Part shown: positions 3,953 to 7,190 of the stretch, piece after piece
Layout of the letters: every line of letters starts with the position of its first letter
Position numbering within the stretch: position 1 is the first letter of the stretch
IMG/VR virus record: IMGVR_UViG_3300030233_000021
Location: 1 to 24,267 of that record
Direction: 5' to 3' (one strand)
Origin: a virus
DNA length: 24,267 nucleotides
Notes under the pieces: generated by a model
Database searches by the model: none
Told to the model about the DNA's origin: nothing
Seen by the model: the letters and a program-made list of their open reading frames with translations, nothing else
Position numbers and translations under genes: made by a program

Positions 3953-3968
3953 GGCTCGCTAACTGAGG

Positions 3969-3995
3969 CCCCCGCTCCGGCGGGGGTTTCTTTTT
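3969..3995 (+). terminator. Rho-independent terminator of the head operon
   Basis: The arms CCCCCGC (3969-3975) and GCGGGGG (3980-3986) flank a TCCG loop and are followed by TTTCTTTTT. The G+C-rich 7-bp stem with a U-rich tail lies 36 bases after the capsid stop and just before the non-coding island. It marks the end of the head transcription unit. Confidence 0.88.
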
Positions 3996-4036
3996 GCGTC
4001 AAGTTGAAGGTTTACAGGTGAGCCATATTGTCAACC

Positions 4037-4087
4037 TATGGGTTACCTATGACCCAAATTGTACGCTTATGGTTTACCTATAGCGCA
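4037..4087. repeat. pair of 20-bp imperfect direct repeats upstream of the RNA promoter
   Basis: TATGGGTTACCTATGACCCA (4037-4056) and TATGGTTTACCTATAGCGCA (4068-4087) match at 16 of 20 positions. Their starts are 31 bp apart, about three helical turns. A further ACCTAT lies at 4034. They end 30 bp before the -35 box at 4117, so they could be activator or repressor sites for that promoter. Nothing in the window identifies the protein that would bind. Confidence 0.45.
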
Positions 4088-4116
4088 AAATATAAAACGA
4101 CACGTCCATATTTTTG

Positions 4117-4145
4117 TTGACGCGCTACGATAGCGCGTCTATATT
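4117..4145 (+). promoter_or_regulatory. strong sigma70-type promoter P1 of the RNA island
   Basis: TTGACG (4117-4122) and TATATT (4140-4145) are separated by exactly 17 bp, each with five of six consensus bases. The predicted start is about 4151-4152, exactly where a GGCGCGG helix begins the downstream structured RNA. No protein start follows within a usable distance. Together with the upstream terminator this makes an independent unit likely. Confidence 0.72.
4119..4139. promoter_or_regulatory. palindromic operator inside promoter P1
   Basis: GACGCGCTA (4119-4127) and TAGCGCGTC (4131-4139) are perfect 9-bp reverse complements around CGA. The palindrome fills the whole spacer between -35 and -10 and overlaps the -35 box. 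This is the usual arrangement of an operator where a dimeric repressor blocks RNA polymerase. The cognate regulator is unknown; the small HTH proteins encoded near the right end are possible but unproven partners. Confidence 0.6.
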
Positions 4146-4151
4146 TATGTG

Positions 4152-4263
4152 GCGCGGCGGCGTGGAAAGCAGACACGCAGCACTTACCTACAAGTGAACG
4201 GTCAGTAGGATGGGGCCGTCTTTAATCGGGCAACCGACAGCCGGAGTAGCGACCGGCCCGCGC
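4152..4263 (+). ncRNA. structured non-coding RNA with pseudoknot (RNA1)
   Basis: The segment right after promoter P1 folds by hand into a closed multi-helix RNA. The closing helix is GCGCGG (4152-4157) with CCGCGC (4258-4263). Inside are hairpin A GCGTG/CACGC (4160-4164, 4174-4178), hairpin B CACTT/AAGTG (4181-4185, 4192-4196), hairpin C ACGGTC/GGCCGT (4198-4203, 4214-4219), hairpin D TCGG/CCGA with a GCAA tetraloop (4226-4237), and hairpin E GCCGG/CCGGC (4240-4244, 4253-4257). The loop of B (CCTAC, 4187-4191) is complementary to GTAGG (4205-4209) in the loop of C, giving a kissing loop or H-type pseudoknot. It is not a tRNA (no T-arm or anticodon arm) and I recognise no known family. The 3' end is uncertain: the first terminator is at 4364-4411. 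Confidence 0.55.
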
Positions 4264-4269
4264 ACCTTA

Positions 4270-4299: not shown

Positions 4300-4411
4300 C
4301 AGACGGGGCGGCAAAAACAGGCTTCGTGTCGGGTCGATATGGGAACCGCGTTCCCGTCCCTACGAGCGCCGCTCCGGGTTGTCCTCCCCCGTGTAGCGGC
4401 GCTCACTTTTT
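4300..4411 (+). ncRNA. possible short RNA or 3' part of RNA1 (RNA2)
   Basis: This is the segment between possible promoter P2 and the terminator. It contains GGGAAC/GTTCCC around CGC (4341-4355), a competing long-range pairing GACGGG (4302-4307) with CCCGTC (4353-4358), and the terminator stem. No credible reading frame with a ribosome site is present. It may be a separate small RNA or the 3' domain of a single ~260-nt transcript starting at P1. The sequence alone does not decide between them. Confidence 0.3.
4364..4411 (+). terminator. long stem-loop terminator of the RNA unit
   Basis: GAGCGCCGCT (4364-4373) and AGCGGCGCTC (4395-4404) form a perfect 10-bp stem. An inner CGGG/CCCG pairing (4375-4378, 4388-4391) extends it, and TTTTT follows at 4407-4411. 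The loop is longer than usual, but the stem is very stable and the T-run is correctly placed two bases after it. Confidence 0.6.
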
Positions 4412-4473
4412 GCGGGTTTGCACCGTAGCAATACGGCGGGCATTGGCGCGGTTCGAATCCGTGACCCGCTCCA
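4412..4473 (+). tRNA. atypical 62-nt tRNA-Gly-like element ending in CCA (remnant, mini-tRNA or att core)
   Basis: A canonical T-arm is present: CGCGG (4447-4451), loop TTCGAAT (4452-4458), CCGTG (4459-4463). It is followed by ACCCGC, discriminator T and CCA (4464-4473). ACCCGC pairs with GCGGGT at 4412-4417, giving the acceptor sequence and U73 typical of bacterial tRNA-Gly. The acceptor/T-stem is one base short (11 bp instead of 12). Only 29 bases lie between the arms, enough for one hairpin (CCGTA-GCAA-TACGG, 4423-4436) but not for D and anticodon arms, so no anticodon can be assigned. It begins directly after the terminator T-run. It could be a decayed tRNA-Gly, a tRNA mimic, or the tRNA 3'-end core of an attP; no integrase is visible. 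A complete functional tRNA is unlikely. Confidence 0.4.
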
Positions 4474-4686: not shown

Positions 4687-4798
4687 GCGCGCCATCGTCT
4701 AAGGAACGCACTCCACCGCACTGATAAAGCGGCAAGACCGCCGGGATAACCGGAGGAATGTGGGGCTGGCCCACTGGCGCGCACAAAACGGAGGAATT
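4687..4798 (+). promoter_or_regulatory. structured 5' leader RNA (multi-branch, RNA3)
   Basis: GCGCGCC (4687-4693) pairs perfectly with GGCGCGC (4776-4782), closing a 96-nt domain. Inside are CCGC/GCGG (4716-4719, 4729-4732), CCGG-GATAA-CCGG (4741-4753) and GTGGG/CCCAC (4760-4764, 4770-4774), giving a four-way-junction outline like a cloverleaf. ACTCC (4710-4714) could also pair with GGAGG (4752-4756). No T-arm or CCA is present, so it is not a tRNA. The ribosome site CGGAGG (4789-4794) for the next gene lies just outside the closing helix. A cis-regulatory leader is possible, but I match no known riboswitch class. Confidence 0.45.
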
Positions 4799-6404: not shown

Positions 6405-7190
6405 ATGACTAAGGAGGACAAAAAGCAGCCGGTCAAAAATATAGCGATCTGCACGCCTATTGGCCGATTTGCCGACCCTGACTACATGACTTCAGTCTTT
6501 AAGACGATGAAGTTTCTTGATGGTCACGCAAACGTATCTTGGTTCACCCAAGTTGGTCACGCAAACTTGCCACGGGCGCGCAACATCCTGACCGGGCAAG
6601 CCCTAAAGTGGGGCGCTGATGACATTATCTTTATTGATGATGACATTGGTTGGGAGCCGGAAGCGCTTTTGAAGCTGATGCACGTTCCCGAAAAGGTGTT
6701 GATTTGCGCGGGAGCGCCACAGCGCCGGACAGAAGAATTGAGCTTTTGCGGCGGCCCTGACAACAACCTTCAATGGGACTGTGGCGAGGGAAGGGTGATA
6801 TACAGCGGCTATGCTGCTACCGCCTTCCTGAGAGTGAAAAGAGAAGCGTTCGAGGCTTTGGCCGATAAGGTTGAGACGTTTAGTTATACCGGAACGGACT
6901 ACAAGGCGTTTTTCAACTACAAGATAGGGCCAAACCCAAGCGGCAAAGAGGTGGGCTTTATCGGAGAAGATTACTATTTCTCCATGCTGGCGAAGGATAA
7001 CGATGTAGAGGTCTGGATTGACCCGACGATTGAGCTAAGACACTGGAACCGAAGCCCGCTAACCGAAGTTTTGGTTAATCACGTTAAGCCCAAGGAGAGT
7101 AAAGATGACGCTATTGGGGAAATTGCAAGCGATAGTGACAGCGCTGGACGAAATTCTAACCAAGACGGGGCAGGTGCAGACGGCGCTTGA
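6405..7190 (+). CDS. GT-A-type glycosyltransferase-like protein
   Basis: This 261-residue protein starts directly after the upstream TAA. Residues ~11-20 (IAICTPIGRF) form the first nucleotide-binding strand. NLPRARNILTGQALKWGADDIIFIDDDIGW carries the DDD motif that binds metal and nucleotide sugar in GT-A enzymes. GYAATAFLRVKREAFEAL and GFIGEDYYFSMLAKDNDVEVWIDP provide the later acidic 'ED' catalytic-type segment, and LRHWNR follows. The last ~30 residues are low-complexity (DSDSAGRNSNQDGAGADGA) and overlap another gene out of frame. Possible targets are virion proteins, host surface sugars or modified DNA, and none can be chosen from sequence. The acceptor and donor are unknown. Confidence 0.7.
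   Translation: MTKEDKKQPVKNIAICTPIGRFADPDYMTSVFKTMKFLDGHANVSWFTQVGHANLPRARNILTGQALKWGADDIIFIDDDIGWEPEALLKLMHVPEKVLICAGAPQRRTEELSFCGGPDNNLQWDCGEGRVIYSGYAATAFLRVKREAFEALADKVETFSYTGTDYKAFFNYKIGPNPSGKEVGFIGEDYYFSMLAKDNDVEVWIDPTIELRHWNRSPLTEVLVNHVKPKESKDDAIGEIASDSDSAGRNSNQDGAGADGA

Follow-up and report, generated by a model that had tools for sequence, protein, structure and literature searches.

ROOL and GOLLD are structured RNAs of phages and prophages, which are often located near tRNA islands and whose function is unknown (PMC12286853). They are several hundred nucleotides long and form homo-oligomeric cages, and GOLLD is constant in its 3′ region and variable in its 5′ region, with a linker that sometimes holds tRNAs (PMC12286853). 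HDV-like theta ribozymes, which are also small and structured, belong to the tRNA operons of phages (PMC10879173). Two further phage RNAs are the CI RNA of satellite P4, which sets immunity by pairing with its own leader, and the pRNA of phi29, which is tied to one phage lineage and a packaging ATPase.

The RNA described here, RNA1, is encoded in the IMG/VR virus record IMGVR_UViG_3300030233_000021, of which a stretch of 24,267 nucleotides (positions 1 to 24,267, in the following called the window) was analyzed. It is a member of a widespread phage RNA family, for which 221 distinct members were collected by a general finder among the fetched loci.

RNA1 and its surroundings in the window

A first-pass annotation had described a promoter-driven structured RNA at positions 4117-4263. 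This observation held as a whole and extends beyond what had been described. The sigma-70-type promoter TTGACG-17-TATATT (4117-4145, plus strand) scored 10/12 in a consensus scan, and the start predicted from its -10 box, at about position 4152, coincides with the beginning of the closing helix P1, as had been claimed. Not contained in the annotation was a perfect 9-bp palindrome, GACGCGCTA-CGA-TAGCGCGTC (4119-4139, no strand), which fills the spacer between the -35 and -10 boxes. It is the sole match in the window, with about 0.01 expected by chance from shuffles, and is likely to be a candidate operator or repressor site, a function inferred from its sequence. Upstream of the promoter, an A/T-rich region (4014-4095) carries loosely repeated GGTTTACCTATA / GGGTTACCTATGACCC motifs, which are possibly regulatory; no direct-repeat family was reported in it by the repeat finder.

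RNA1 itself (4152-4263, plus strand) consists of a constant frame and a variable insert, as judged from its 221 distinct relatives and a covariance model. The frame begins with the 5′ strand of P1 (GCGCGG, 4152-4157), followed by the 2-nt linker CG (4158-4159) and the hairpin P2 (GCGTG-GAAAGCAGA-CACGC, 4160-4178), which is hairpin A of the annotation. After the hypervariable insert of 61 nt (4179-4239), the last hairpin P4 (GCCGG-AGTAGCGA-CCGGC, 4240-4257) is directly abutted by the 3′ strand of P1 (CCGCGC, 4258-4263), so that P1 comprises 6 bp in this phage. All of these parts lie on the plus strand. Covariation in relatives supports nearly all positions of P1 as well as the P2 stem, whose loop is conserved, and the stem of P4, for which the relatives came from a scan with P2 only. 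The covariance model built in this analysis covers 4149-4266 with 40.7 bits (E 9e-7), the window itself being among the 48 training sequences.

Inside the insert, hairpins B (4181-4196), C (4198-4219) and D (4226-4237), the GCAA loop and the complementarity between the loop sequences CCTAC (4187-4191) and GTAGG (4205-4209) are present on the plus strand as the annotation had written them. They are known from this sequence only. No relative of the insert was found; hairpins B to D and the proposed kissing loop or pseudoknot therefore lack comparative support, and the pairing of the two loops remains unproven. Folded on its own, RNA1 is unimpressive (MFE z -1.25), and its predicted fold differs from the annotated one. 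The case for RNA1 therefore rests on its relatives.

The gap behind the capsid operon, in which RNA1 is located, has a length of about 870 bp; of 13 relatives of the capsid gene that were checked, 12 have a gap of only 15-130 nt behind this gene. The claim that the phage spends some 850 bp on this RNA had to be corrected, as RNA1 takes up about 112 nt, while the terminator of the capsid operon (3965-3990) and another two tRNA-like elements are located in the remainder. The gap shows no evident protein gene, and ARAGORN called no tRNA over RNA1, which agrees with the annotation on both points. When the gap as a whole was compared with phages by DNA similarity, only short terminator-like matches and matches of 25 nt were returned, and the latter turned out to be the P2 hairpin.

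The annotation had also recognized no known family, and this held. No match at gathering score was found in the window with the 4227 models of Rfam 15, which include tRNA, tmRNA, GOLLD, ROOL, pRNA and ribozymes, and at E<=10 nothing relevant appeared over RNA1 or over its relative in locus L027. In 15 further loci, the only Rfam matches touching family members were tRNA hits to tRNA-like inserts. The folds of HDV-like and hammerhead ribozymes were rejected due to their topology and the absence of Rfam matches. A published description of the family was not found in the open-access literature searched, in which the exact loop sequences gave chance matches only; subscription papers and unpublished lists of viral RNAs were outside this scope. 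The family is thus probably undescribed so far.

A near-constant frame in a widespread family

The first lead to relatives came from 80 loci with a related capsid gene, of which only L027 has the RNA; the capsid gene and the RNA therefore do not travel together. In L027, two short collinear stretches on the opposite strand matched both ends of RNA1 and not its middle, and the comparison yielded two conserved hairpin loops, GAAAGCAGA and AGTAGCG. Searching IMG/VR with both loops as a pattern gave 72 stretches at a spacing of 52-82 and 70 at 83-113, besides 5 at 21-51, 40 at 114-144 and 16 at 145-175. With P2 only, 33 stretches were found in 84,980 prokaryote genomes, mostly of Proteobacteria, and with P4 only at least 120. 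Members originate from IMG/VR contigs, Proteobacterial prophages and named phages, i.e., PotUPM1, Persinger, Ochrobactrum phage POI1126, vB_PaeS-D14H (D14H) and the Orimi/Orisa group (Orimi01). Sulfitobacter phage pCB2047-A likely carries a diverged copy. No family member was found in E. coli genomes, and a search of plasmids gave short matches of low score only. The reversed-sequence control, performed with an earlier run of the finder, returned 0 matches.

Two annotated hypothetical proteins, WEV90047.1 of PotUPM1 (L257, 3099-3431) and XAI70718.1 of Orimi01 (L261, 4993-5466), overlap the RNA and are probably spurious. A coding function within the RNA was rejected, as a Shine-Dalgarno sequence with ATG and ORF occurred in 4 of 192 cases.

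The family shares a near-constant frame of P1, linker, P2 and P4, in which P4 is stacked on P1 in a cloverleaf-like wiring and which holds a structured insert. From 5′ to 3′, P1 is followed by the 2-nt linker, P2, the insert, a conserved A (93%), P4 and the second strand of P1 without a linker. The contiguous pairs of P1 peak at 9 bp (54 of 188 relatives) and mostly number 6-12; the linker is CG in 170 of the 188. Both hairpins have stems of 5 bp, and their loops are GAAAGCAGA in P2 and AGUAGCGM (AGTAGCGM in DNA) in P4, the latter in nearly all members. As the loops served as search terms in the two-loop patterns, their conservation can be judged fairly only from the one-sided scans. In the scan with P4 only, most loci again show P1, the CG linker and the P2 loop, with P2 stems covarying around the constant loop (GCGTG/CACGC, GCGGG/CCCGC, GCGCT/AGCGC, GCACG/CGTGC). 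Conversely, the P2-only scan recovers P4, whose stems covary as well (GCAGG/CCTGC, GCGAG/CTCGC).

P1 was not used in any scan. In 143 members chosen without regard to P1, its positions 1-7 are paired in 90-100%, compared to 40-67% expected from independence at the variable positions, and all pair types occur at the positions past the first. An alignment of the frame from 48 diverse members has 96.5% of its cells paired (99.6% in the P2 stem), and 15 of 19 pairs show double-sided changes. Its covariation score is 0.58 versus 0.13 when shuffled, and slid versions of the alignment are paired in only 32-48%. Unaided, RNAalifold returns the same structure. The first-pass annotation had proposed covariation in relatives as a check, and compensatory changes were seen in P1, P2 and P4, so that its closing helix, hairpin A and last hairpin are confirmed. 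Its claim of a real, functional phage RNA is supported by the 221 relatives and these changes, together with the absence of an Rfam family or paper. What it had not seen is the division into a constant frame and a hypervariable, exchanged middle, in which its proposed pseudoknot lies.

A chance folding or a functionless, degenerate tRNA remnant is all but excluded. It could appeal to the unremarkable fold of the single sequence (z -1.25), but it is contradicted by the covariation in P1, P2 and P4, by the homologous inserts described below and by the lack of any match in the reversed control. For the frame, chance folding is refuted by covariation; it remains possible that the insert of the window alone has decayed.

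The RNA is free-standing, as indicated by the random strand of its neighbors and by promoters placed at P1; expression data are not available. The downstream gene is co-stranded with the RNA in 87 of 175 cases and the upstream gene in 89 of 166, which equals a random distribution. Throughout the family, -10 boxes cluster just before P1, reaching a score >=9 in 7.9% versus 1.2% of shuffled sequences and a score >=10 in 2.9% versus 0.1%. Strong promoters are thereby enriched 6-fold over shuffles at this site; no more than about 8% of members have one of the best (score >=9). Terminators just 3′ of the RNA were found in 8 of 139 members (0.8 when shuffled), including intrinsic ones in Persinger and D14H. 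The neighboring genes are of all kinds, e.g., structural, integrase and methyltransferase genes. No recurrent protein partner was found next door, as the neighbors matched 127 PHROGs, each in at most 2 of 116 cases, and anti-defence genes were not enriched among them.

These data bear on the explanation that the RNA is a cis-acting element of the adjacent operon, such as a leader, an antiterminator like put of HK022, or a packaging RNA. RNA1 has its own promoter and sits upstream of same-strand genes in the window, which would fit this explanation. Against it, the strand of the downstream neighbor is random (87/175) with no fixed orientation upstream of an operon, in Persinger and D14H a terminator of its own ends the RNA, and in L027, the only one of the 80 related-capsid-gene loci with the RNA, it lies antisense between capsid-operon genes. 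Due to the random neighbor strands, the own terminators and the antisense copy, a general leader role is excluded, and a cis-acting element as such is very unlikely. The roles proposed by the annotation (regulator, decoy, packaging or anti-defence RNA) remain unresolved, with packaging and leader functions disfavored by neighbor strand and position.

The exchanged insert and the connection to tRNAs

Between P2 and P4 the family is hypervariable: 218 distinct inserts formed 197 clusters (E<=1e-3). The loci L280 and L350 are 97% (1,042 nt) and 87% (213 nt) identical in their flanks and carry unrelated inserts of 44 and 122 nt. In L296 and L302 (flanks 95 and 94%), P1 is identical and the inserts are unrelated, and the switch occurs exactly between P2 and P4. 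Conversely, L090 and L115 share the same 65-nt insert bar one base, with flanks only 75-76% identical and a different P1, and the inserts of L112 and L129 are 100% identical within flanks of 81-93%. Unrelated inserts in near-identical flanks and near-identical inserts in diverged phages show that the insert behaves as a cassette, which is replaced wholesale between phages. It is inferred that the conserved P2 and P4 sequences provide the homology for this exchange by recombination.

Two copies of the RNA with different inserts are found within one locus, in tandem in L237, a Herbaspirillum MAG, and at a distance of 3.7 kb in L084/L125.

Where inserts have relatives, they keep their helices by compensatory change, i.e., they are under structural selection. 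In ten homologous inserts, helix Pa, which pairs insert nucleotides 2-5 with the four bases preceding a constant ACCTGA, is kept by seven different sequence combinations in 39 of 40 cells, compared to 5-25 of 40 in slid controls. Most of the ten also keep a helix Pb, whose 5′ strand lies in the loop of Pa, forming an H-type pseudoknot, with the variants CTCCG/CGGAG, CTCACG/TGTGAG and GGGC/GCCC. Two pairs of distant inserts show 6 (L205/L213) and 5 (L153/L163) compensatory and 0 broken pairs. By MFE, inserts are no more stable than shuffled or flanking DNA (z -0.5); therefore, the evidence for insert structure rests on few homologous groups. The pseudoknot in homologous inserts makes the one proposed for RNA1 of the window plausible, yet it is unproven, as its insert has no relatives.

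The largest insert group (L226, L237, L242, L257, L274, L284, L341, L351, L357, L370) ends in a strongly conserved tail, GAGAGAAAGGC..TGTCGGCC..GAGGAT, and is the most promising single insert family for structural work.

Such diversity could also be expected from a self-recognition or immunity RNA, whose insert would serve as an address specific to the phage and be matched by a cognate site or protein that this phage itself encodes, the diversity arising from selection for exclusivity between phages. The extreme variety of inserts and their wholesale exchange between near-identical phages would suit an incompatibility determinant, and some members are located near cI or integrase genes. However, insert 11-mers matching the own locus are not in excess (0.0055 versus 0.0044), and in three phage records, of which two are complete genomes and the third covers 50 of the 59.8 kb of POI1126, the longest antisense match has 10-12 nt, no longer than for unrelated inserts. 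A constant cognate gene next door is also missing. This explanation is considered unlikely, with the role still open. A guide or antisense role against the phage's own DNA was tried as a candidate and gave no signal in the own loci or in the three phage records.

An RNase-resistant carrier, in which the frame only protects the transcript and the insert targets host transcripts as antisense or sponge RNA, is likewise improbable. The constant frame, the exchangeable cargo and the own promoters and terminators speak for it. On the other hand, conservation in those inserts that have relatives concerns paired helices and a pseudoknot rather than single-stranded seeds, and no complementarity to the own phage DNA was found, a check that did not include host transcripts.

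Several findings connect the family to tRNAs. Same-strand T arms occur at 0.23-0.41 per kb within 250 nt of the RNA, compared to about 0.05 further off, and seven inserts contain a T arm. The inserts of L174, L177, L187 and L219 score as tRNA. ARAGORN tRNAs adjoin several members, and proximity to tRNA genes holds for about a fifth. The connectivity of the cloverleaf is met, with a 2-nt linker after the closing stem and a last hairpin of 5 bp without linker, and it is possible, by analogy, that the loops of P2 and P4 meet like D and T loops. Not met are the 7-bp acceptor stem (the mode of P1 is 9 bp, and 6 bp in the window), the T loop consensus TTCRANY, in place of which P4 has AGTAGCGM, and a CCA after P1. 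For these reasons the family is not classed as tRNA. In L219, an RF02968 DUF3800-IX RNA (6608-6682), whose function is also unknown, adjoins the tRNA-bearing family member.

The window itself contains a tRNA-like element, RNA2 (4411-4473, plus strand), recognized by sequence and fold, which is a neighbor and not a part of RNA1. It has an acceptor-like stem (GCGGGT/ACCCGC), a perfect canonical T arm (CGCGG-TTCGAAT-CCGTG) and an encoded TCCA, and a single GCAA-capped hairpin replaces the D and anticodon arms; ARAGORN makes no call. A second tRNA-like fold, RNA3 (4687-4782), shows an 8-bp closing stem (GCGCGCCA/TGGCGCGC), on which a T-arm-like hairpin (GTGGG-GCTGG-CCCAC) sits directly, and the loop CTGATAA, which is anticodon-like. 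Among the fetched loci, neither RNA2 nor RNA3 had convincing relatives.

Accordingly, a mimic or decoy derived from phage tRNA genes has to be considered, which would titrate or block a tRNA-handling enzyme or a tRNA-cutting defence nuclease. It is supported by the cloverleaf wiring with linkers of 2 and 0 nt, the enriched T arms nearby, the seven T-arm inserts, the adjoining tRNAs, the tRNA-scoring inserts and the tRNA-like RNA2. Against it, the P4 loop is not a T loop, a CCA is missing, P1 most often has 9 instead of 7 bp, and most inserts are unlike anticodon arms. Though still open, this explanation appears unlikely on its own; it is compatible with the favored one set out below, and both may hold.

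Proposed function and comparison with known systems

As the most economical explanation we favor, tentatively and with the expectation that it may well fail, an RNA acting in trans, whose constant frame serves recognition or stability and whose insert is an interchangeable effector, which is turned over in an arms race. The data show the frame, the swapping and the structural selection; function, partner, target and benefit are inferred. P2 and P4 would dock either with one another or with a host factor of wide conservation and thereby confer stability or recognition. The insert would act in trans as an effector domain binding a changing host target, a protein or an RNA, which probably belongs to the host machinery or to defence. 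Inserts would be swapped by recombination at the conserved sequences of P2 and P4, which would allow phages to retarget the RNA. In the phage of the window, a sigma-70 promoter belonging to RNA1 would drive its transcription, with a repressor probably acting at the palindromic operator. The turnover of the insert would reflect conflict with hosts or other phages, which again is an inference. Against this explanation stand the lack of expression or binding data and of an identified host target, the MFE of the inserts, the missing enrichment of anti-defence genes nearby and the small share of members with the best promoters, and the hypervariability might possibly reflect self-recognition instead of host targeting. 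A bolder reading is conceivable, in which phages of Proteobacteria share a modular RNA system whose constant tRNA-like frame displays interchangeable pseudoknotted effectors, which spread and are swapped by recombination at the two conserved hairpins and each of which blocks a different host factor.

If the inferred function of a trans-acting effector RNA is true, the family would be a natural library of RNA effectors, each selected against something in the host, and swappable RNA modules would join proteins among the means by which phages counter or steer their hosts. Under the bolder reading, it would be an RNA counterpart of fast-evolving anti-defence proteins. The constant hairpins offer a simple handle to find members and to fish out partners, and the swaps are natural experiments.

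Nearest in kind among the described RNAs are ROOL and GOLLD, which are also phage RNAs near tRNA genes with unknown function. The family of RNA1 differs from them by its length of about 100-250 nt, another secondary structure and the absence of an Rfam match. With tRNA, tmRNA and YrlA it shares a closing stem, a 2-nt linker, a 5-bp hairpin, a middle part and a 5-bp hairpin stacked without linker, as well as the neighborhood of tRNA genes. In contrast to these, it has neither the T-loop consensus nor a CCA, its closing stem usually has 8-10 bp, and it has other conserved loops and a hypervariable middle. Like the P4-type CI RNA it would be a phage RNA that is short and stable and owes its specificity to variable parts, but no such pairing within the own phage was found in the own locus or in three phage records, and there is no Rfam match. 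The phi29 pRNA is likewise a small phage RNA with loop-loop contacts, whereas the family described here occurs in unrelated phages at varying places, also without an Rfam match. The theta ribozymes have a nested pseudoknot fold, while the RNAs of the family are closed as a whole by P1 and carry their conserved bases in the loops of hairpins; no Rfam match links the two. To our knowledge, no other natural RNA family combines a near-invariant frame with nearly 200 unrelated structured inserts exchanged between near-identical viruses. Even if its function should turn out to be milder than proposed, the family adds a distinct class to the few phage RNAs of unknown role beside tRNA genes, namely ROOL and GOLLD.
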